A DNA stretch of 64,000 nt from Saccharothrix sp. NRRL B-16314 (lineage in GTDB: Bacteria; Actinomycetota; Actinomycetes; Mycobacteriales; Pseudonocardiaceae), in assembly GCF_000716595.1 (NCBI RefSeq), contig NZ_JNXC01000002.1, positions 356,332-420,331 on the forward strand. The letters run 5' to 3'. The position numbers and the translations under genes are program-made. Below the pieces are notes generated by a model. It was not told the origin of the DNA. It searched no databases and was given only the letters and a program-made list of their open reading frames with translations. The first letter of the stretch is position 1. Each line of letters starts with the position of its first letter. Positions 2,122-47,801 of the stretch are shown piece after piece.

Positions 2122-4404
2122 GTGTTGAGATCCCGCAAACGCACGGCGGTGGCCGCGTTGGCCGCGCTCGCCCTGCTCGTCACCGGAGCGCAGGCCAGCG
2201 GCATCATCGAACCGGCGGGACAGTCGTACCTCGACGCCCGCGCGCCGGTCGACCGGCGGGTCGACGACCTCCTCAGGCGGATGACGCTGGAGGAGAAGGT
2301 CGGCCAGATGACCCAGATCCGGCTGGGCAAGCTGCGCGGCAACTGCGAGTGGAACCCCGGTCCGCTGCGCGAGGACTGCATGAAAGCCGTCCTGGAGGAC
2401 GCGAAGGTCGGCTCGATCCTGTCCGGCGGCGGCGACGCGCCGAACCCGAACACGCCGCGCGCGTGGGCCGAGATGACCAACGCCGTCCAGAAGTACGCGA
2501 TGGACCACAGCCGGCTGCCGATCCCGCTGATCTACGGCGCGGACGGCGTGCACGGCCACTCGAACGTGCTCAGCGCCACGATGTTCCCGCACCAGATCGG
2601 CCTCGGCGCGACGTGGAACCCCGAGCTCCAGCAGCAGCTCGGCGCGTCGACCGGTCGGGCCATGCGCGCCACCGGCGTGTTCTGGAACTTCGCGCCGGTG
2701 TCCGACATCGCACGTGACACCCGGTGGGGCCGCTACTACGAGACCTACAGCGAGGACCCGGTGCTGGCCGGCGCTCTGGCCGCGGCGAACGTGCGCGGGC
2801 AGCAGAGCGACCCGACCGACGGCACCGCCAAGCTCACCGCGACCGCCAAGCACTTCGCCGGGTACTCGGAGCCGTTCAACGGGCACGACCGCGCGCCCGC
2901 GCAGCTGCCGATCCGGTACCTCCAGGACACCGTGCTGCCCGCGTTCCAGCCGCAGTTCGACGCGGGCGTCGGCACCGTGATGATCAACTCCGGTGCGGTG
3001 AACGGCGTGCCGGCGCACGCGTCGAAGTACCTGCTCACGACCCAGTTGCGCGAGCGGATGGGCTTCCGCGGCGTGGCGATCACCGACTGGGAGGACATCC
3101 GGTTCCTGGTGGACCGCTACCACGTGGCGGCGGACTACGAGGAGGCCATCGCGATGGCCGTCAACGCCGGCGTGGACATGGCGATGGAGCCGTCCAACGC
3201 GGCGGAGTTCACCTCCGGGCTGCTGTCCGCCGTGCGCGGCGGTGCGGTCAGCGGCAAGCGGATCGACCAGGCCGTGCGGCGCATCCTGAAGCTCAAGTTC
3301 GAGCTGGGCCTGTTCGAGAAGCCGTACGTCGACCCCGAGAAGGCCGACGCGATCGTGAACGGCGCCGACCGCGCGCTGGCCCGTCAGGCTGCGGCGGAGG
3401 GCGCGGTGCTGCTGCGCAACGAGGGCGGGGTGCTGCCCCTGTCGACCGGCGTGGGCAAGCTCGTGGTGACCGGAGACACGGCCGACTCGCCGGCCAGGCA
3501 GCTCGGCGGCTGGACGGTCGGCTGGCAGGGCGTGCCCGAGTCGTCGCCGATGCCGCCGACCGTGACGGTGTTGCAGGGCATCAAGGCCGCCGTTCCGTCC
3601 GCCGACGTGGTGAGCGCGCCCACGCAGGCCGAGGCCGTCGCGCAGGCCGGTGACGCCGACGCGGTGGTCGTGGTGCTCGGCGAGGACCCCGGCGCCGAGG
3701 GTGAGGCCGACACCGAGGAGCCCGCCCTGACCGCCGCGCAGCAGGGTCTGGTGGACGCGGTGCGGGCCACCGGCAAGCCGGTCGTGGTCGTGCTGCTGAC
3801 CGGGCGTCCGCAGGTGCTCGGCACGGTGGCGGACGCTCCCGCGCTGGTCGCGGGCTGGCTGCCGGGCACCGAGGGCGGCGCCGCGATCGCCGACGTGCTG
3901 TTCGGCGCGGTGAACCCGAGCGGGAAGCTGCCGGTGTCGTGGCCGAAGTCGGTCGGCGACCAGCCGTTCACGTACGACCAGGTGCGGGGCGCGAACGCGG
4001 CTCCGGGCTCGGGGTACGACCCGGCGTTCGCGTTCGGGCACGGCCTCTCGTACACGACGTTCACCACGTCGGCGCCGACCCTGAAGTCCACCGAGGTGGG
4101 CCGGGACGGCCAGGTGAAGGTGTCGGTGACGGTCGCCAACACCGGCTCGCGGGACGGGACGCTCGTCGTGCCCGTGTTCGTGCACCAGCCGGTGAGCAAG
4201 GTCCTGACACCGCAGCAGCGCCTCGTCGGGTTCACCCGGGTCGCGGTGAAGGCCGGTGAGGAGCGGGCGGTCGACGTGACGTTCGACGTGAAGCGCCTCG
4301 CGGTGACCGCGGGTGACATGGACGGCGGGGGGAAGCCCGAGGTGGCGAAGGGCTCCTACGAGGTCGTGGTCGGCGACGGGAGGGCTCGGTTCACGGTGCG
4401 GTGA
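2122..4404 (+). CDS. Secreted glycoside hydrolase family 3 beta-glucosidase (BglX-like)
   Basis: Hydrolyses terminal beta-glucosyl residues, probably from cellobiose or short beta-glucans, outside the cell. The 760-residue product starts at GTG 2122, set by GGAGG six bases upstream, and opens with a Sec signal peptide ([22 protein letters not shown]). The GH3 N-domain carries [37 protein letters not shown] and the nucleophile motif AITDWED (Asp near residue 322). The C-domain has [14 protein letters not shown] and [12 protein letters not shown], and a fibronectin-III-like tail follows ([16 protein letters not shown]). Length and order are typical. The CebR-type site at 2023-2036 suggests induction by cellobiose. 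Confidence 0.95.
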
Positions 4405-4532
4405 GCTGCCCTGATATCCTTCTCGGCCGTACCCGCGCGGCATTCCGCTGTGGAGGAAAACCACCCCCTCGTGGGGTGGAGCCGGTGACAAGCGCGGTAC
4501 GACTCCGAGACCGAGGAAAAGGTGGCTTTCGC

Positions 4533-4793
4533 GTGGCGAACATCAAGTCCCAGCTGAAGCGGATCAAGACCAACGAGAAGGCGCGCCTGCGCAACAAGGC
4601 CGTCAAGTCGTCGCTCAAGACCGCGATCCGCAAGTTCCGTGAGGCTGCCGAGGCCGGTGACAAGGAGAAGGCTGTCGCGCTGGTGCAGGAGGCTTCCCGC
4701 AAGCTCGACAAGGCCGTCTCCAAGGGCGTCATCCACGCCAACCAGGCCGCCAACAAGAAGTCGGCGCTCGCCCGTCGCGCCAACCAGATCTGA
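4533..4793 (+). CDS. rpsT: 30S ribosomal protein S20
   Basis: Small-subunit protein that binds 16S rRNA early in assembly. The 86-residue Lys/Arg-rich helical protein begins [25 protein letters not shown] after a GTG at 4533 and ends [19 protein letters not shown], the S20 pattern at normal length. The start is supported by AGGTGG eight bases upstream. The leader holds a stable hairpin (arms CCACCCC 4461-4467 and GGGGTGG 4473-4479) that could take part in autoregulation, known for S20 in other bacteria; that link is inference. Divergent transcription of rpsT and holA is the usual arrangement. A strong terminator follows at 4809. Confidence 0.98.
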
Positions 4794-4808
4794 TCTGGTT
4801 CTTCTTCA

Positions 4809-4847
4809 AGAAGCGCCGCTCCCCCGCACGGGGTGGGCGGCGCTTCT
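4809..4847 (+). terminator. Stem-loop terminator after rpsT
   Basis: A perfect 11-bp stem, AGAAGCGCCGC at 4809-4819 with GCGGCGCTTCT at 4837-4847, lies 16 bases after the rpsT stop. The loop is C/G-rich and no long T-run follows, as is common in actinomycetes. Confidence 0.85.
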
Positions 4848-4913
4848 GCGTTGTCCTGCATCTCATCGCACGCCGGTGAATCTTCTCCCGCGGTGAATCT
4901 TCTGCAGCCGTGC

Positions 4914-5101
4914 GGTCAGCGGGCCTTCTCCCGCCGCGGATCTTCTGCCGCCAAGCGGTCAGCGGATCTTCTCCGGCCGCGGAACTTCTCCCGCCAAGCG
5001 GTCAGCGGATCTTTCCCCGGCGCGAAACTTCTCCGCCACTCGGTCAGCGGATCTTTCCCCGCTGCGCGGTCCGCGGACCTTCTCCCACCGTGCGGTCAGC
5101 G
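4914..5101. repeat. Degenerate tandem repeat array between rpsT and holA
   Basis: The octamer GGTCAGCG, or a one-base variant, recurs at 4914, 4957, 5000, 5042, 5068 (GGTCCGCG) and 5094. The spacings are 43, 43, 42, 26 and 26 bases. Each unit continues with a GGATCTTCTCC-like stretch; the 43-base form carries a second, similar half. The last copy runs into the holA stop codon (5096-5098), so the array directly abuts the gene end. A 105-residue frame on the + strand crosses the array, but its Ser/Arg repeats look like translated repeat DNA rather than protein. Confidence 0.8.
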
Positions 5102-6076
5102 CCGTCCGTGCGCCGCGACGATCTTCAACACCGCGCGCTCCAGGGCATAACCCGAATCGGCCGCGACGCCTTTCACGTCGGCGTTCAGATCGGCGACCAC
5201 CGTCATCGCCGCCGCGAGCCCCGGGTCTTCCCAGCCACGCGACTGGCCCTGGGCCTTCTTCACCTTCCACGGCGGCATGCCGAGCTCGCCCGCCAGCTTG
5301 AACGGGTCACCCCGCCCCACCGCGGACACCCGCGCGACCGTGCGCACCGCGTCGGCCAGCGCGTCGGCGACCAGCACGTGCGGCACACCGAGCTGGATCG
5401 CCCACCGCAACGCCTCCAGCGCACCGGCCCGGTCACCCATCACGGCCTTCTCCGCGACCGCGAACCCCGTCACCTCGGCCCGGCCGCGGTGGTAGCGGCG
5501 AACCGCGTCGGCGTCGACCTTGCCGCCGGTGTCGGCGACGAGCTGCGACGACGCCGCCGCCAGCTCGCGCAGGTCCGACCCGACCGCCTCGATCAGCACC
5601 GCCACGGCCTCGGGATCGGCCTTGCCGCCCGCCGACCGGATCTCGTTGCGCACGAACGCCTCGCGGTCCGCGGCCTTGGTGACCTTGGGGCACTCGGTCA
5701 CCCCGGCGCCGGCCTTGCGCAGCGCCGCGGGCAGGTCCTTGGCCACCTTGCTGCGCCCGCCGCCGGTGTGGACGACGACCAGCGTCACGCCGTCCGCCGG
5801 CGCCTTGGCGTACGCGAGCACCGCGTCGGCGACCTCCTTGCCGATCTCCTGCGCCGCCTCCAGGGCGATCACCCTGCCCTCGGCGAACAGCGACGGGCTC
5901 ACCAGTTCGGCCAGCTCAGCCACGGTGAGATCGGTCACGCGGACGCGGGTCAGGTCGGCCTGCGGGTCGGCTTTGCGGGCGGCGTCCAACGCGCCGCGCA
6001 CAGCGCGCTCGACCAGCAACTCCTCCTCGCCGACGATCAGGTGCACGGCGTCGGGCGTGTCAGCGGGCGCACTCAC
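5096..6076 (-). CDS. holA: DNA polymerase III subunit delta
   Basis: The clamp-loader delta subunit, which opens the beta sliding clamp for replication. The 326-residue protein shows the HolA pattern: VHLIVGEEELLVERAVRGAL at the N-terminus, then SPSLFAEGRVIALEAA, ADREAFVRNEI and SDLRELAAASSQLV, and the C-terminal collar domain (FAVAEKAVMGDRAGALEALRWAI, PPWKVKKAQGQSRGW). The start is GTG 6076, preceded by GGGAGG at an eight-base spacing; the frame is open further upstream but lacks a ribosome site there. It is divergent from the riboswitch-controlled gene. Its stop codon sits at the edge of the tandem repeat array at 4914-5101. Confidence 0.95.
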   Translation of the reverse strand: MSAPADTPDAVHLIVGEEELLVERAVRGALDAARKADPQADLTRVRVTDLTVAELAELVSPSLFAEGRVIALEAAQEIGKEVADAVLAYAKAPADGVTLVVVHTGGGRSKVAKDLPAALRKAGAGVTECPKVTKAADREAFVRNEIRSAGGKADPEAVAVLIEAVGSDLRELAAASSQLVADTGGKVDADAVRRYHRGRAEVTGFAVAEKAVMGDRAGALEALRWAIQLGVPHVLVADALADAVRTVARVSAVGRGDPFKLAGELGMPPWKVKKAQGQSRGWEDPGLAAAMTVVADLNADVKGVAADSGYALERAVLKIVAAHGRR

Positions 6077-6173
6077 GCCGCGATCCTCCCACGCGCAACG
6101 GGCGTCCGGATGGTGGACGTGTCTGGCTGAGGGTCGGGATCGTGCCGTAGTTTGAAGCCACAACTGAATACCG

Positions 6174-6297
6174 CTCATCCAGAGGGGCAGAGGGATCGGC
6201 CCGAAGAAGCCCCGGCAACCCGTTGTTCAGCGTGCGCATCACAGCGCGCGCCGGCAATCACGGTGCCAATTCCGACCCGCGACGCGGGAAAGATGAG
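6174..6297 (+). ncRNA. SAM riboswitch (SAM-I/SAM-IV clan, S-box-like)
   Basis: The conserved core is present in order: CAGAGGGGCAGAGGGATCGG, CCCGAAG, GCCCCGGCAACC, then GGTGCCAATTCC, and a short hairpin CCCGC-gac-GCGGG followed by AAAGATGAG. The closing stem P1 pairs CTCATC (6174-6179) with GATGAG (6292-6297). The hairpin between the AATTCC element and AAAGATGAG corresponds to P4 of SAM-I, an argument for SAM-I over SAM-IV. The 3' arm of P1 overlaps the Shine-Dalgarno GAGGAG (6295-6300) of the next gene. Ligand binding would therefore hide the ribosome site (translational OFF); this mechanism is inferred. Confidence 0.9.
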
Positions 6298-6310
6298 GAG
6301 ATACCTCGCG

Positions 6311-7573
6311 ATGACTGCTGTGAGTGTGCCTTCGGCCACCACCTCCTTCGACCTCGGTCCGGCTCGGGCACTGTCCTGCCGTGAATGCGGGCACGAGACG
6401 CCTCTCGCCCCGGAATACGCCTGTCTGGAGTGTTTCGGGCCGCTGGAAGTGGCCTACGACTTCGGCCGGGTCCGCCGTGAGGACATCGAAGCCGGCCCCC
6501 GTTCGATCTGGCGCTACCGCAGCCTGCTGCCCGTGCCGTCCGACGTCCAGTCGCACCCCAACACCGACCCCGGCGGCACCCGCCTGGTCGAGGCCGACCG
6601 CCTCGCCAAGGCCCTCGGTGTGCGCAAGGTGTGGGTGAAGGACGACACCGGCAACCCGACCCACTCGTTCAAGGACCGCGTCGTCGGCGTCGCCCTCGCC
6701 GCCGCCCGCGAACTCGGCTTCAAGGTGCTGGCCTGCCCGTCGACCGGCAACCTGGCCAACGCCGTCGCCGCCGCCGCCTCCCGTGCCGGCTGGCAGTCGG
6801 TGGTCCTGGTCCCCTCCTCCCTGGAGCGGGCGAAGATCCTGATGACCGCCGTCTACGGCGGCAACCTGATCACTGTCGACGGCAACTACGACGACGTGAA
6901 CCGGCTGGCCCAGGAACTGGCCGCCGAGCACGAGGACTGGGCGTTCGTCAACGTCAACGTCCGGCCCTACTACGCCGAGGGTTCCAAGACGCTGGGCTAC
7001 GAGGTCGCCGAACAGCTCGGCTGGCGGCTGCCCGACCAGATCGTGGTGCCCATCGCGTCCGGTTCCCAGCTGACCAAGGTCGACAAGGCGTTCCGCGAGT
7101 TCGGCAGCCTCGGCCTCGTCGAGGAGACCCCGTACCGGGTGTTCGGCGCCCAGGCCACCGGCTGCTCCCCCGTCTCGGCCGCCTTCAAGGCCGGCCTCGA
7201 CGTGGTCACCCCGGTCCGCCCGGACACCATCGCCAGGTCGTTGGCGATCGGCGCGCCGGCCGACGGCCCCTACGTGCTGGACGCCGTCCGCCGCACCAAC
7301 GGCGCGATCGAGGACGTCACCGACGAAGAGGTCGTGGAAGGCATCCGCCTGCTGGCCGAGACCGAGGGCATCTTCGCGGAAACCGCCGGCGGCGTCACCG
7401 TGGCCACCGCGAAGAAGCTCATCGAGACCGGCCGGCTCGACCCGGACGGCGAGACCGTGCTGCTGATCACCGGCGACGGCCTCAAGACCCTGGACGCCCT
7501 GGGCGACCGGGTCGGCCCGAGGGCCAACGTCCCGCCGTCGGCGGAGGCCGTGCTGAAGGCCCTCCAGGACTGA
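6311..7573 (+). CDS. thrC: Threonine synthase family PLP enzyme with N-terminal zinc ribbon
   Basis: Fold-type II PLP enzyme; family members convert O-phosphohomoserine to threonine. The 420-residue protein opens with a zinc ribbon (Cys23, Cys26, Cys38, Cys41). The PLP lysine lies in GNPTHSFKDR (Lys121), and the Gly-rich phosphate loop (CPSTGNLANAVAAAA) and VLLITGDGLKT follow. This matches the longer zinc-ribbon paralogue rather than the shorter canonical actinobacterial ThrC. The start is ATG 6311, ten bases after GAGGAG. A SAM riboswitch directly upstream is unexpected for a pure threonine gene and hints at a role tied to methionine or SAM. Threonine synthase is the best family call, but the physiological reaction is not certain. 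Confidence 0.88.
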   Translation: MTAVSVPSATTSFDLGPARALSCRECGHETPLAPEYACLECFGPLEVAYDFGRVRREDIEAGPRSIWRYRSLLPVPSDVQSHPNTDPGGTRLVEADRLAKALGVRKVWVKDDTGNPTHSFKDRVVGVALAAARELGFKVLACPSTGNLANAVAAAASRAGWQSVVLVPSSLERAKILMTAVYGGNLITVDGNYDDVNRLAQELAAEHEDWAFVNVNVRPYYAEGSKTLGYEVAEQLGWRLPDQIVVPIASGSQLTKVDKAFREFGSLGLVEETPYRVFGAQATGCSPVSAAFKAGLDVVTPVRPDTIARSLAIGAPADGPYVLDAVRRTNGAIEDVTDEEVVEGIRLLAETEGIFAETAGGVTVATAKKLIETGRLDPDGETVLLITGDGLKTLDALGDRVGPRANVPPSAEAVLKALQD

Positions 7574-43538: not shown

Positions 43539-43611
43539 GGCGGTCAGTACTCCTTCGTACGGGATTGTGCAACTCCGGTAGAGGGTAGCCGGAGCTGCGA
43601 TAGTGCCCGCC

Positions 43612-43713
43612 GTGACCACCGGGAAGACCCACCTCGGGTCGACGCTGACCGTCGCGGCCGTGCTGTTCGTGCTGCTGCGGCTGCTCGCGGTGACGCGCTA
43701 CGACTGGCACACG
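43612..43713 (+). pseudogene. 5' fragment of a membrane-protein gene, cut by accessory DNA
   Basis: From GTG 43612 the frame reads [20 protein letters not shown] then [13 protein letters not shown]: a basic N-terminus and one convincing membrane helix. After about 43713 the protein-like character and base composition change abruptly (TLRHRIPQCCLPWWTSQSG...). That suggests the rest of the gene was replaced. A possible 3' piece is at 47940-48031. The frame formally stays open to 43914, so an intact 100-residue protein cannot be excluded. Confidence 0.5.
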
Positions 43714-43832
43714 ACGTTACGACACCGAATACCGCAGTGCTGTCTGCCGTGGTGGACCAGCCAGTCAGGTTGGGTGCCGGTGCCGAGCCAAGTCCTGGTC
43801 ACCTCGATGCGCCGATGGCCATCACCTCCATC

Positions 43833-44507
43833 TCAGGCGGACTCCTCGATGGCGGCTCCTTCCGGGCTGCTCTGCTCCCACGCCAAGCTGAACAACGACA
43901 GCGCGAGGTCGTAGATCAAGCTTGATTGCCGGGCGGCGATGCAAGGCGAGTGACGACCATGCGCCGATCCGCTGTACAACGTCAGGTACGCGACCTCGTT
44001 CGTGACGATCACCCGGTACCTGTTCGGCAGGTTGTAGAAGCGCAGCGACGCATTGCCGTGGCGGTGGGCCGCAGCAGCCACGTAGTTCGCGTTGGCACGG
44101 ACCTGCTCAGCGAGGAATCCGGACGCGAACGCCGGATCCGCCCGCCGCACGTCCTCCTCACGCTTGGCCAACCACGAGTGCGGGCTCGAACGCAGGTCAG
44201 GCAGCAGTACCTGCACCACCTGCTGCGGCCGCGTCCCTCCCGCCCAAACGGAGGTGAACGTGTCGCGGGTCAACTCGTTCCCGCGGCCTGCCAGCACGCG
44301 GATCCAGTGCGCTCTCGTCAGATCACGTGCGAGATCCGGCCCGGCGAGTTCCTGGCGCTGGTAGACGTGTTGCACGGGAAGACCGGCGATGCTCGAGAAC
44401 AAAGCCGTCAACGATCGCCTGACGCGTTTGGAGAGCGCCCATCCGCACGCGACGGTGAGACAGGTCGCGACCAGGGAACTGGCGGTCGCCAAGACGAAGT
44501 CGACCAT
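43833..44507 (-). CDS. Membrane-anchored protein of the PNP operon (third gene), function unknown
   Basis: A 224-residue protein with an N-terminal membrane helix (VDFVLATASSLVATCLTVACGWAL) and a cytoplasmic part. The C-terminal 150 residues (VVQVLLPDLRSSPHSWLAKREED...YNLPNRYRVIVTNEVAYLTLYSGSAHGRHSPCIAARQSSLIYDLALSLFSLAWEQ) have the layout of the sensor-like or phospholipase-D-like domain seen behind HTHs in some actinobacterial regulators: a VLLPDP-type strand, RFYNLP, and a strand before RHSP. This similarity is from memory. It starts six bases after the nucleosidase stop, so the two are co-translated. Confidence 0.75.
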   Translation of the reverse strand: MVDFVLATASSLVATCLTVACGWALSKRVRRSLTALFSSIAGLPVQHVYQRQELAGPDLARDLTRAHWIRVLAGRGNELTRDTFTSVWAGGTRPQQVVQVLLPDLRSSPHSWLAKREEDVRRADPAFASGFLAEQVRANANYVAAAAHRHGNASLRFYNLPNRYRVIVTNEVAYLTLYSGSAHGRHSPCIAARQSSLIYDLALSLFSLAWEQSSPEGAAIEESA

Positions 44508-44513
44508 CCCGTC

Positions 44514-45338
44514 TCACCCGACCAGGTAAGGGATCAGGCTGCGGAGTACGACGGCCGCGTTCCTGGACGCGACTTCGTGCGCGTCGTCGTCCTTCTGCTC
44601 ATCGGCGAGGTCGGAAATTCCTCGGACGACGACCCAGGATCGGCTTCCGGCCTCGTGGCAGAACTGACCCAGCCCGTCGGACTCCATGTCCACGGCCAGT
44701 ACCTTGTCGTTGAACTCCCTCAGGTATCGGCGCTCCGAGGCGTTGCCGGTGGCGATCACGACGTTGCCGGAGCCGATCAGGCCGGAGTACGCCAGGAAGT
44801 CGCCGATCGTGGCCGGCTCCCCCAGCGTGGAGAAGAAGTCGTCGACGGCACGCCCCACAGACGCGGGAGCTTCCCAGTGGCGACCTCTGTACTGCGTGCC
44901 ATGCGGGGTCTTCTTCTGCAGGTCGTAACCCACCACCTTGGTGGCCACCACGACGTCCCCGATGCGCTGCCCCGGATCGATCGCGCCCGCGATACCCGCC
45001 AATACCAGCACCTCCGGCGAGAAGTTGTGAACCAGTCGCCGTGCCGCGTCCATCGCGGCGCCTTGGCCCTGACCGTGTGTCCGCACGGCCACGACGCGGC
45101 TGAACCGCGCGTCCGAGTAGAAGCCGTCGTCGAGCGGCGACAGGTCGAGCACGTCGCGAACCGCACGGGTTTCGGCCGGAGTCATGGTGATCACTCCGAT
45201 GCCGTGCCCCTCTTCCCGCTTCTCCGGCGGACGTGGAGCAGAAGGACCTACCGATGCTCCCGGACCGATGGCGCTGCCGGTAATCGTATTCCCGTCCCCG
45301 GTCAGCATTGCACCTTCAACCCTTATTCTCATGTTCAT
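44514..45338 (-). CDS. PNP/UDP-phosphorylase-family nucleosidase with N-terminal adhesion-like motif
   Basis: A 274-residue enzyme of the purine nucleoside phosphorylase/MTA-SAH nucleosidase superfamily. It has GIGVITMTPAETRAV, LVLAGIAGAIDPGQRIGDVVVA, the ribose-binding Glu in AVDMESDG (Glu219) and the catalytic Asp in RGISDLADEQ (Asp243). Both key acids are intact. Residues 12-31 (LTGDGNTITGSAIGPGASVG) precede the domain and are echoed at the C-terminus of the upstream membrane protein. PNP domains serve as ATP- or nucleoside-cleaving effectors in several antiphage systems (Detocs, some CBASS). ATG 45338 has AGGAGG six bases upstream and shares one base with the previous stop (TGATG). Confidence 0.88.
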   Translation of the reverse strand: MNMRIRVEGAMLTGDGNTITGSAIGPGASVGPSAPRPPEKREEGHGIGVITMTPAETRAVRDVLDLSPLDDGFYSDARFSRVVAVRTHGQGQGAAMDAARRLVHNFSPEVLVLAGIAGAIDPGQRIGDVVVATKVVGYDLQKKTPHGTQYRGRHWEAPASVGRAVDDFFSTLGEPATIGDFLAYSGLIGSGNVVIATGNASERRYLREFNDKVLAVDMESDGLGQFCHEAGSRSWVVVRGISDLADEQKDDDAHEVASRNAAVVLRSLIPYLVG

Positions 45339-47011
45339 CACACACCTCCTGAGAAGCTGTCAGGAATATTGGTCCCTGCCTGGTTCACCGTGGCACCCGA
45401 ACCTATCGATGAGCCTTCGATGTTGAGACTTCCCGCGCTGAAGACATTGGCGTTGATGACGGTGTTCATGTGTCGCTCGAACGCGGAGACGTCCATCCCC
45501 TTCATCTTGAGGAACTCGATGATGCCTTCGAACATCGGGTTGAGTATGAAGTTCTTGTTCTCCGCGATCTCCTGCACATCATCGGCGAAGTGCCGCTCGC
45601 GCCTCACCCGCTGCAACTCCTGACGGATGCTGACACGGGCGCCGATCACCGAGTTCCGCTTCGAGACGAGCGTACGATCTTTCCGGGCGTACCATGCACG
45701 GGCAGCAACCCAGGGCGCTGCGCCGAGGTGCCATGACTGACCGAATTCGCGCGGAAGATCGTGTAGTGCACGGAAGGCCGAGCGGACAACTTCTCCGACG
45801 CCGTTCCGCCGGTACGCGTCGACTACCTTGAATTCTTCCGGCAGGCTCGTGAGCATACCCAAGGAGAAATCGATGTTGAGCGTGCGCGCCCTCAGCGTCA
45901 GGTTCACGAAGATCGTCGTCACCACTTCACCGGATCTACTGACACCGATTTCCAGGTAGTGCTTGACCGGGCTGTCCGGGTTGGCAATGATCTGTTCCAC
46001 TTCATCGGCGGTCGGCTCGTTGAGCAAAAGGTTCCGAACTGCCGCGACGTGCTCTTCCGCGACGAAGAGCCGGTCTCGCACGTGCAACCCAGACAATCCC
46101 GGCCCTTCCTGGAAACCACTCAGCTCGGTGGCCGCTTTTCGCAGGTAACGTATGAGTTCAGGTGCGTCAAAACGCGGATGGTCGCTTGCGATGAACTCGG
46201 GCTCCCTGGCTGCGGCCCGCACCAGTTGAATTGACTGCGGTGGCCACCGGTGCACGAATCCGCTGCCGACGAAAGGGCTCGGGGTACTCTGACTGGAATA
46301 GCGGTGGCCGTACACCACCAAAGTGCTCGCTTGCTGGGCGTCGACTACTTCGGATCGCTTGCACAGCCGGGTCGGTCGGAGGTTCGCTGTCCGATGCAGC
46401 CGGTTCACGGCGAATTGTTGCGTCACGCCCGTGGCCATCGCGAAAGCAGCGGCCAGGAGCAGCGTCAGCATTCCTTGGGGCAGCGCGGCCGCCAGGGAGG
46501 AAGGCCCCAACTCCACGACGGCCACCACTACGGATGCGAGCACCACACATTCGCCCAGGTCCAACCAGAACCGGCGCTTCTGCTCTCGCAACTCCTGCGC
46601 GTCGTCGTCCGACTCCACCCTGGCCCGCCACTTGCGACCCCACGACCTCCCCTGAAGGTTGAGAAGTACCACGAACGCGGACAGCACGTCCGTCACCGAG
46701 CGCAGCGACAAGATGGCAAAAGCGGCCAGAACGGTCGCCATGACGTTGGTCGACATCCCTGCCGCGAACAACGCGACCAGGCACAGCTGGTATGCGGTGC
46801 CCAGCGCCCATGCGCGCCTGGCGTGCTCCACCACGGCGACGAGGTCGAACCCATAGGACGGCGCGACCCGGTGCCGGCAGTCGTTGTGCACGTCGCGGAT
46901 GACCAGGTCGCGGAACTCGCGGTTGAGGTAGACACCGGCACACATACGTCGGGTGGCCGTGCTCTGGCGATCGTCGCGCACTCCGGCGGGAGTCGTCGCG
47001 TCCGTGCCCAT
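45338..47011 (-). CDS. Multi-pass membrane protein with PFVGSG domain and C-terminal adhesion-like motif (first gene of PNP operon)
   Basis: A 557-residue protein with about four membrane segments (residues about 70-118 and 153-198). A large cytoplasmic part starts with YGHRYSSQSTPSPFVGSGFVHRWP (PFVGSG at 246-251), a motif I associate with uncharacterised actinobacterial membrane proteins. No nuclease, kinase or protease motif is visible. The C-terminal tail, residues 528-546 (SLNIEGSSIGSGATVNQAG), matches the N-terminal motif of the nucleosidase. ATG 47011 follows GGAGGT at six bases. A strong promoter lies 30-58 bases upstream. It likely acts as the sensor/anchor half of the module; this is inference. 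Confidence 0.78.
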   Translation of the reverse strand: MGTDATTPAGVRDDRQSTATRRMCAGVYLNREFRDLVIRDVHNDCRHRVAPSYGFDLVAVVEHARRAWALGTAYQLCLVALFAAGMSTNVMATVLAAFAILSLRSVTDVLSAFVVLLNLQGRSWGRKWRARVESDDDAQELREQKRRFWLDLGECVVLASVVVAVVELGPSSLAAALPQGMLTLLLAAAFAMATGVTQQFAVNRLHRTANLRPTRLCKRSEVVDAQQASTLVVYGHRYSSQSTPSPFVGSGFVHRWPPQSIQLVRAAAREPEFIASDHPRFDAPELIRYLRKAATELSGFQEGPGLSGLHVRDRLFVAEEHVAAVRNLLLNEPTADEVEQIIANPDSPVKHYLEIGVSRSGEVVTTIFVNLTLRARTLNIDFSLGMLTSLPEEFKVVDAYRRNGVGEVVRSAFRALHDLPREFGQSWHLGAAPWVAARAWYARKDRTLVSKRNSVIGARVSIRQELQRVRRERHFADDVQEIAENKNFILNPMFEGIIEFLKMKGMDVSAFERHMNTVINANVFSAGSLNIEGSSIGSGATVNQAGTNIPDSFSGGV

Positions 47012-47022
47012 CTCGCACCTCC

Positions 47023-47051
47023 GTACTATAGGTCATCTTGACTATAAGTAC
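47023..47051. promoter_or_regulatory. Operator-like repeats between the PNP operon and the Nudix regulator
   Basis: ACTATAGGT (47025-47033) and ACTATAAGT (47041-47049) are direct repeats 16 bases apart, and GTACTATA (47023) with TATAAGTAC (47043-47051) form an imperfect inverted repeat. They cover the -10 and start region of the minus-strand operon promoter and the -35 of a weaker plus-strand one. The adjacent NrtR-type protein is the natural candidate to bind here. Confidence 0.55.
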
Positions 47052-47069
47052 GGCCCTAGTTCAGGTCAA
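47041..47069 (-). promoter_or_regulatory. Promoter of the PNP operon
   Basis: TTGACC (47069-47064) and TATAGT (47046-47041) with a 17-base spacer on the minus strand: a near-consensus housekeeping promoter, unusually good for this high-GC genome. Transcription would start near 47034, about 23 bases before the first gene. Confidence 0.75.
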
Positions 47070-47093
47070 TCCGACCCTTAGGGGTATGGTGAG

Positions 47094-47801
47094 GTGGTGA
47101 TCAGGGATGTCGCCCTAGCTCGCCACGCCACCGGTGTCGCGGTGACGGTGGACCTGGTGATCTTCACCATCCGGGACGACAGGTTGCAGGTGTTGCTGGT
47201 GGAGCGGGGGAAGCAGCCGTTCCTAGGTATGTCCGCACTGCCTGGCGGGTACGTCCGCGATGGCGAGACGCTCGACCGCACCGCAATGCGCGAGCTGAAC
47301 GAGGAGACCGGCCTCGACGGTCGGCGGCTGCACTTGGAGCAGCTGAAGGCGTACGGCGATCCCGGACGCGACCCGCGCGGCCGGGTGATCACCGTGGCGT
47401 ACCTGGCTCTGGTGCCGAACCTCTCCGCACCGGTGGCCGGCACCGACGCCAGGGCTGCGCGGTGGGTTCCGGTGGAATCGGTCGACTTCGACGAACTCGC
47501 CTTCGATCACGCCATGATCTTGCGTGAGGCACTTGAGCGAGCGCGATCTCGACTGGAGTACACGACAATCGCCACCGCCTTCTGCACCGAGCCGTTCAGC
47601 ATCAGCGACCTCCGGCGCGTGTACGAGGTCGTGTGGGGGTTCCCGCTCGATCCGAGCAACTTCCGCCGCAAGGTCACGGGAGCGGAGCACTTCCTCATCG
47701 CTACTGGCCAGCGCAGCACACCTGAGATCGGCCGACCTGCCGCGCTCTACCGCAGGGGATCGGCCCAACTTCTCTTCCCGCCGTTGATGCGTTCGGGCTG
47801 A
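47094..47801 (+). CDS. Nudix domain / winged-helix protein, NrtR-type regulator or hydrolase
   Basis: A 235-residue protein. An N-terminal Nudix domain with a complete Nudix box (GYVRDGETLDRTAMRELNEE plus TGL, residues 52-74; all catalytic Glu/Arg positions kept) is followed from about residue 150 by a winged-helix region (FSISDLRRVYEVVWGFPLDPSNFRRKV). This is the NrtR architecture, in which an ADP-ribose-binding Nudix domain controls DNA binding to NAD-metabolism genes. In many NrtR proteins the box is degenerate; here it is intact, so hydrolysis of a nucleotide is possible. GTG 47094 follows AGGGG at nine bases. Divergent from the PNP operon, sharing its operator region. Confidence 0.88.
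   Translation: MVIRDVALARHATGVAVTVDLVIFTIRDDRLQVLLVERGKQPFLGMSALPGGYVRDGETLDRTAMRELNEETGLDGRRLHLEQLKAYGDPGRDPRGRVITVAYLALVPNLSAPVAGTDARAARWVPVESVDFDELAFDHAMILREALERARSRLEYTTIATAFCTEPFSISDLRRVYEVVWGFPLDPSNFRRKVTGAEHFLIATGQRSTPEIGRPAALYRRGSAQLLFPPLMRSG

Follow-up and report, generated by a model that had tools for sequence, protein, structure and literature searches.

In a 64,000-nucleotide stretch of Saccharothrix sp. NRRL B-16314 (contig NZ_JNXC01000002.1, positions 356,332 to 420,331; hereafter, the window), an operon encodes a receptor-like membrane protein, a nucleosidase of the PF01048 family and a third, predicted membrane-anchored protein, and faces a divergently transcribed gene for a NUDIX regulator. 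We found that the last ~30 residues of the receptor match the first ~30 residues of the protein encoded downstream, and that this motif varies greatly between operons of the same kind while matching within each of them. These matching tags suggest a mechanism in which the membrane protein turns on the enzyme by way of the tag, one also supposed for some fungal and bacterial immune receptors. Accordingly, we interpret the locus as a motif-coupled receptor-effector module, in which the receptor would template the N-terminal tag of the nucleosidase and so activate it, under the control of the NUDIX regulator; we assign this reading a probability of about 0.62. It rests on the cognate matching of the motifs, the exchange of partners on one receptor family, a fusion of receptor and partner, the composition of the receptor tail, the conservation of four genes together with the presence of NUDIX genes at the nucleosidase loci, the invariant catalytic acids, published precedent and renewed matches in a sample of the phylum. 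An earlier interpretation made from the DNA alone (the sequence-only reading) had assigned to the membrane protein the role of recruiting or activating the nucleosidase. This proposal now gains a concrete basis in the matching motifs, with activation itself as the probable consequence. What that reading had overlooked is the pairing of the motifs, the NrtR-like regulator, divergently transcribed and with an operator-like site, and the assignment of the third protein to the phospholipase-D fold.

The motif matching was assessed in a survey of the receptor family that covered 80 regions picked from among the family matches (not all of them) and six regions around other matches, and that left out L024 (131 bits) and L082, L084 and L089, which have no called receptor. 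Of 84 receptors scoring at least 200 bits, 71 are directly followed by a coding open reading frame (ORF) of at least 80 residues and 13 are not; the partner ORF was picked by coding bias alone, not by its motif. The 13 receptors listed without a partner include one that is fused to it (L046) and one for which the motif-bearing ORF lies one gene further on (L087). In 30 non-redundant pairs from this wider family (receptors below 50% identity), the mean local score was 63.0 for cognate pairs compared to 29.6 for non-cognate pairs, a result equalled in 0 of 10,000 permutations. The cognate partner ranked first for 19 of the 30 receptors and the score was at least 39 in 27 pairs, the exceptions being L035 and L053, with unrelated neighbours, and L074, with a weak score of 32. 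Among receptor-nucleosidase operons, 27 non-redundant pairs (receptors below 70% identity, out of 36 loci; L116, the same place as L085, was dropped) yielded 94.7 for cognate and 39.6 for non-cognate combinations, again with 0 of 10,000 permutations and with the cognate partner first in 18 of 27 cases. Control comparisons were null in both sets (three using other parts of the proteins in the wider family, two in the receptor-nucleosidase pairs). In the phylum sample, where the motif check covered 16 of 22 loci, six pairs match with scores of 73-86 (L180, L181, L183, L184, L185 and L191), four loci have a called but non-matching neighbour (L182, L189, L196 and L197; 15-24), and in six no neighbour was called.

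Distant operons carry motifs that are almost completely different, and the two copies within L137, L138, L144, L147 and L152 are near-identical (0.86-0.93 identity; mean of 36 pairs, 0.60). Identical motif residues share codons in 434 of 598 cases, that is, 0.73 compared to 0.56 predicted by codon usage, and this excess indicates that recent copying contributes to some of the motif pairs. The receptor tail also differs from the body of the protein in composition, being depleted in charged residues (0.105 vs 0.239) and proline (0.026 vs 0.070) and enriched in asparagine (0.107 vs 0.017).

The receptor family is combined with exchangeable partners, most of which are about 105-130 residues long (below 150 residues in 59 of 71). 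Scans of five small partners for DUF5955, a family without mention in the literature searched, gave two matches above the cut-off (E 4e-8 and 2.7e-6), two below it (0.0014 and 0.26) and one partner with no match. Because only 2 of the 59 small partners contain a 19-residue stretch with a mean Kyte-Doolittle value of at least 1.6, these proteins show no clear membrane helix to back a possible pore-forming (Bell-like) reading of them. The nucleosidase is the partner at five survey loci (the window, L019, L020, L085 and L094). At L102 (about 3557-5920), a receptor relative is motif-paired with a 212-residue TIR protein (PF13676, E 1.4e-11), making this locus a TIR-bearing branch of the receptor family. 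In L046 (3361-5343), a single ORF encodes the receptor and a small helical partner, which are joined by one shared copy of the motif, possibly as an assembly artefact. Partners of 221-225 residues at L055 and L059 carry the motif along with a conserved second domain (PRLGFV.DIVG.G); a cyclase identity guessed from their sequence was rejected on finding no Pfam or NCBIfam support in a scan of the L055 partner (one match, far below the cut-off). A third gene encoding about 460-500 residues, with a GRYRL start and kinase-like by eye, follows the receptor and small partner in L021, L096, L097, L099 and L100.

The receptor itself comprises N-terminal helices (residues 14-42), four long, predicted membrane helices (57-207), a soluble alpha/beta domain (about 218-520) and a tail that bears the motif. 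The AlphaFold model has a predicted local distance difference test score (pLDDT) of 78.7, and the tail (523-557) is below 50, which predicts disorder; in this whole-protein model the soluble domain shows a weak, merely suggestive likeness to START/SRPBCC or KA1 folds, its fold being uncertain. The receptor had no match above cut-off in Pfam, NCBIfam or PADLOC, and a literature search over titles and the openings of abstracts found no paper concerned with the family. Within the bacterial family, a profile of the receptor finds relatives in 82 of 249 genomes; in a sample of 198 genomes from the phylum it finds them in 10, among them the genome of the window. This genome holds a second paralogue (L039, G000:C33:21146-22786) that has no adjacent partner. 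The receptors of L051-L054 likewise have no matching neighbour, and a VQARDV core occurs in the tails of L051 and of one L053 receptor; an ARD pattern is mentioned for BASS2 in the available text of PMC9815663. The L051-L054 receptors might act on effectors encoded at unlinked sites of the genome. Receptors of the type found in L186, L187 and L193-L197, relatives from the large-genome class, end in ...KAD.YDA with no motif tail and no matching neighbour, and may represent an ancestral form that does not signal, or a regulator.

The sequence-only reading had treated the three genes as a unit, and this unit is indeed conserved, although it is really a quartet that includes the divergent NrtR-like NUDIX gene. 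An alignment of the third protein, used to scan named genomes, picked out 40 loci, in Lentzea, Nonomuraea, Planotetraspora, Nocardiopsis, Streptomonospora, Actinomadura and others, and six-frame searches of these loci recovered the receptor in 32, the nucleosidase in 37, the NUDIX/NrtR-like gene in 34 and all four genes in 32. The operon is far beyond chance, as genera other than Saccharothrix have the gene set too. Lack of a conserved association among the three genes would have contradicted the sequence-only reading, and the association is present. Among the incomplete loci, L121 has only the NUDIX and nucleosidase genes, L127 only the NUDIX gene, and L128, L129, L149 and L153 only the nucleosidase gene; L131, at a locus end, and L154, a partial match, hold none of the three. 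Two gene orders occur: that of the window, with the regulator divergent from receptor, nucleosidase and third gene, and another with the regulator divergent from third gene, receptor and nucleosidase (L123, L130, L136-L140, L142 and L150, mostly Nocardiopsis). The third protein is a predicted membrane-anchored protein of the phospholipase-D fold that lacks the canonical catalytic motif of phospholipase D, HxKxxxxD. In an alignment of 17 sequences inspected by eye, the position of the histidine is N in 12 and H in 5, the spacing exceeds that of the motif by one residue, and an invariant arginine takes the place of the lysine.

In the window, the chain of three minus-strand genes is as the sequence-only reading described it (Table 1): the receptor stop codon TGA (45340-45338) overlaps the nucleosidase ATG (45338-45336) within a TGATG, and a 6-base gap (44508-44513) precedes the third gene. 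An in-frame GTG at 45341 lies one codon upstream of this ATG; in the numbering from the GTG, the intact catalytic acids previously given as Glu219 and Asp243 are Glu220 and Asp244. The promoter postulated ahead of the operon is present as a promoter-like site, one of two sigma-70-like sites in 43600-47300 compared to a shuffle mean of 0.5. The description of the locus as an accessory island stands in part. The G+C content is 0.61-0.67 over 44000-46999 compared to mostly 0.68-0.74 around the operon, and the distribution in the genus is patchy, since only 2 of 25 genomes have a nucleosidase that is close over its full length and 10 more have partial matches at 30-39% identity; the flanking genes, however, resemble core, housekeeping-type genes by eye (NDK-, ABC-transporter- and pullulanase-like). 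The closest genus-mate carries the same block inverted, on the opposite side of the pullulanase-like gene.

Table 1. Features of the operon and of the divergent gene in the window.
Feature	Position	Strand	Basis or remark
Receptor-like membrane protein, 557 residues	45338..47011	-	ORF list
PNP_UDP_1 nucleosidase/phosphorylase, predicted effector, 275 residues from GTG (274 from ATG at 45338)	44514..45341	-	PF01048
Third protein, 224 residues: predicted membrane anchor (N-terminal helix, residues 2-24) and a single domain of the phospholipase-D fold that lacks a canonical HxK	43833..44507	-	
Divergent NUDIX and NrtR-type winged-helix regulator, 235 residues	47094..47801	+	PF00293, PF21906
Promoter-like site TTGACC-17-TATAGT	47041..47069	-	sigma-70-like, 10/12
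Palindromic operator-like site, minus-strand reading TTATAGTCAAGATGACCTATA	47027..47047	.	15/18 to consensus
Receptor C-terminal signalling motif (predicted), residues about 520-546	45374..45454	-	match to N-terminus of downstream protein
Nucleosidase N-terminal signalling motif (predicted), residues about 6-32	45246..45326	-	match to receptor tail; outside PF01048 match
Glu57, predicted catalytic acid	45171..45173	-	invariant 36/36
Glu220 in DMESDG motif	44682..44684	-	invariant 36/36
Asp244 in GISD motif	44610..44612	-	invariant 36/36

The nucleosidase matches PF01048 over residues 82-270 (E 1.5e-21, 77.3 bits with a cut-off of 25.1). The 36 relatives in which the three acidic residues are invariant all come from the same operon type; Glu57 presumably acts as a catalytic acid, as in methylthioadenosine/S-adenosylhomocysteine (MTA/SAH) nucleosidases. 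The nearest solved structures are MTA/SAH nucleosidases (3dp9, E 2e-16), and the housekeeping enzymes of this kind share the fold and the catalytic acids with the window enzyme. In contrast to them, the latter has an extra N-terminal motif and a receptor in its operon, and all 14 NCBIfam models that it matches stay below the equivalog cut-offs (e.g. 75.5 of 169 bits and 53.7 of 73.8). The same genome contains two further PF01048 genes. An ordinary housekeeping nucleosidase is thus ruled out by the NCBIfam cut-offs, the paralogues and the operon context, a point that supports the sequence-only reading.

The divergent regulator exceeds the Pfam cut-offs for both of its domains (PF00293, E 2.2e-21; PF21906, E 5.6e-14), and its NUDIX box looks intact by eye when set against the consensus. 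It resembles the NrtR family in combining a NUDIX domain with the NrtR winged helix and in the palindromic site within the divergent promoter, and differs from it in falling below the NCBIfam cut-off for the NtrR equivalog (130.7 of 400 bits) and in being tied to a nucleosidase module. With a consensus taken from 8 loci, the operator-like palindrome was recovered in 22 of the other 30, compared to 7 of 900 shuffles, and 8 of the 30 scored below 13. On rescanning from the NUDIX starts, seven of these eight reach at least 13, L124 (11) being the exception; in this rescan, which includes the eight training loci and has no separate shuffles, 39 of 40 NUDIX starts have a palindrome close to TTAWGGTCANNNTGACCWTAA that reaches at least 13 of 18. 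The site in the window covers the -10 element, where a repressor would be expected to bind. All five nucleosidase loci of the receptor survey have a NUDIX homologue, and none of the other 82 loci does (tblastn, E 1e-4). L020 holds a second NUDIX-nucleosidase pair (5012-6464) a few kilobases from the receptor-nucleosidase pair. In five loci of the same genus (L158, L160, L161, L162 and L165), NrtR-like NUDIX genes (52-62% to that of the window) lie beside longer PF01048 proteins with a C-terminal tail (e.g. DHAHVDRQVGFDFG in L161, NARVGQQIGVNFG in L165) that resembles a stretch of the following protein, in most cases close to the N-terminus of the latter. Read by eye, this looks like another motif pair, of a RHIM-like type, in which the enzyme carries its motif C-terminally.

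The terminal motifs invite comparison with the BASS motifs, which reportedly go back to Dyrka et al. (2020). Amyloid signalosomes have been recognised by neighbouring genes with a common terminal motif, according to the available parts of PMC7889193 (for bacteria), PMC8086366 and PMC12261475. As presented in the accessible portion of PMC7889193, the BASS/NLR systems of filamentous bacteria resemble the module in having two neighbouring, often overlapping genes with a common short terminal motif, in the diversification of these motifs, in partners that include a small helical protein and, less often, a TIR protein, and in their occurrence in actinobacteria. The window likewise has adjacent genes with a cognate terminal motif, though its own pair is weak. 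It differs from BASS in that the receptor is membrane-embedded, in that Pfam recognises neither NB-ARC nor NACHT in it or in three relatives (L007, L009 and L021), and in that the motif lies at the receptor C-terminus and the effector N-terminus, the reverse of the NLR N-terminus and effector C-terminus of BASS; an NLR receptor with an N-terminal motif is not found here. Given the lack of an NLR and the reverse polarity, we consider the module a variant of the amyloid signalosomes, not a member. In the fungal PUASM systems, too, a PF01048 enzyme and a receptor are linked through terminal motifs that form a pair. Amyloid-like fibres arise from PUASM peptides, and a PUASM fusion acts as a prion; among the motif pairs of the fungal PNP_UDP effectors, one gave fibrils and one yielded a prion in a test host (PMC9815663, available text). 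These systems differ from the module in being fungal, with an NLR receptor and an enzyme that carries the motif C-terminally, and the same text does not mention a NUDIX regulator.

Under the motif-coupled reading, the four-helix membrane protein would sense a cue through its soluble domain and, once triggered, would expose or cluster the motif of its C-terminal tail. The clustered tails could then template the N-terminal motif of the nucleosidase, most likely into a cross-beta (amyloid-type) assembly that would gather the nucleosidase subunits at the membrane and activate cleavage of a purine nucleoside or nucleotide, leading to growth arrest, cell death or the production of a signal. The phospholipase-D-fold protein may be an accessory factor (a regulator, a ligand-binding protein or a scaffold), and the NrtR-like NUDIX protein would repress the divergent promoter until released by a ribosylated nucleotide such as ADP-ribose.

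Matching by itself does not separate templating from stable docking, and the shared motif could instead be a tag for constitutive docking or assembly, through pairing of beta-strands or as a small beta-solenoid, that keeps the nucleosidase always tethered in a membrane-bound complex, with no templated switch. The composition of the motif, rich in G, N, S, T and V, would also suit an ordinary beta-solenoid, and the single chain of L046 would be tolerable for such a complex. However, the predicted disorder of the receptor tail, the fast divergence of the motifs between operons and the use of different effectors by one receptor family, as in known signalling motifs, make a docking tag rather improbable. 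What weighs against the motif-coupled module itself is that the window's own pair is the lowest of the 27 (score 45; 0.26 identity over a 43-residue match). It is unlikely, in our view, that the locus is a metabolic module for NUDIX-regulated salvage of nucleosides or nicotinamide adenine dinucleotide (NAD), with the nucleosidase recycling MTA/SAH-like or NAD-derived nucleosides, the membrane protein regulating it and no part in immunity. NrtR-type regulators control NAD metabolism, and the structural affinity of the nucleosidase and the lack of a defence-island signal agree with salvage; conversely, the patchy distribution of both nucleosidase and receptor, the two other PF01048 genes of the genome, the scores below the equivalog cut-offs and the exchange of the effector for a TIR protein would be unexpected under it.

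As to purpose, the motif-coupled module is compatible with antiphage abortive infection through destruction of (d)ATP, after the manner of the ATP-cleaving PNP-type effectors of Detocs and CBASS that Rousset et al. (2023) are said to have described. In favour of this possibility, the nucleosidase matches the PADLOC 'Effector' model of the PN superfamily (1.1e-17) and the candidate model PDC-M60C (1.1e-14), and PF01048 effectors are listed, with (d)ATP degradation, in CBASS, Detocs, pAgo, DRT8 and NLR-like systems in the available text of PMC10952713. The effectors of Detocs and CBASS share the PF01048 fold with the window enzyme and differ in their sensors, and the accessible part of the source mentions neither a terminal motif pair nor the four-gene set. 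In the window, Pfam shows no receiver or kinase domain in the three proteins or the regulator, and no CD-NTase was found among the three proteins (Pfam and PADLOC) or in the regulator (Pfam), the window's wider flanks lying outside the scan. Detocs carries phosphorelay-type sensor proteins upstream of its PNP effector; known Detocs or CBASS is therefore ruled out, the defining partner being absent from the operon. The defence island suggested by the sequence-only reading is not borne out either. Any one PADLOC family matches at most 4 of 127 flank proteins of related loci (E 1e-10, with no background set), the commonest being ZorA (MotA/ExbB/TolQ), and strong candidate-defence matches are single ones (PDC-M02B, 2.2e-114; PD-T4-6, 3.4e-86; mad6, 6.2e-63). 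With neither the defining partners nor clustering with defence genes, an antiphage role is somewhat doubtful, and the nucleotide depletion proposed in the sequence-only reading is no more than a possibility.

Bacterial amyloid signalling, in the available text of the literature cited, involves NLR-type receptors whose triggers are unknown. We also put forward a broader proposal, tentatively and at a little short of even odds. Under this proposal, actinobacteria would use a large, undescribed class of non-NLR membrane receptors, with four helices and a cytosolic sensing domain, and swappable effectors (the nucleosidase, TIR and small helical proteins) that would be fired by amyloid templating of private, fast-diverging pairs of C-terminal and N-terminal motifs, each operon being insulated by its motif, and a NUDIX repressor reading NAD- or nucleotide-derived metabolites would hold the nucleosidase branch in check. 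If true, this would be a second, membrane-bound class of receptors with reverse motif polarity, its many naturally different motif pairs would lend themselves to tests of specificity, and motif templating would be a general means of coupling sensors to effectors in multicellular bacteria.

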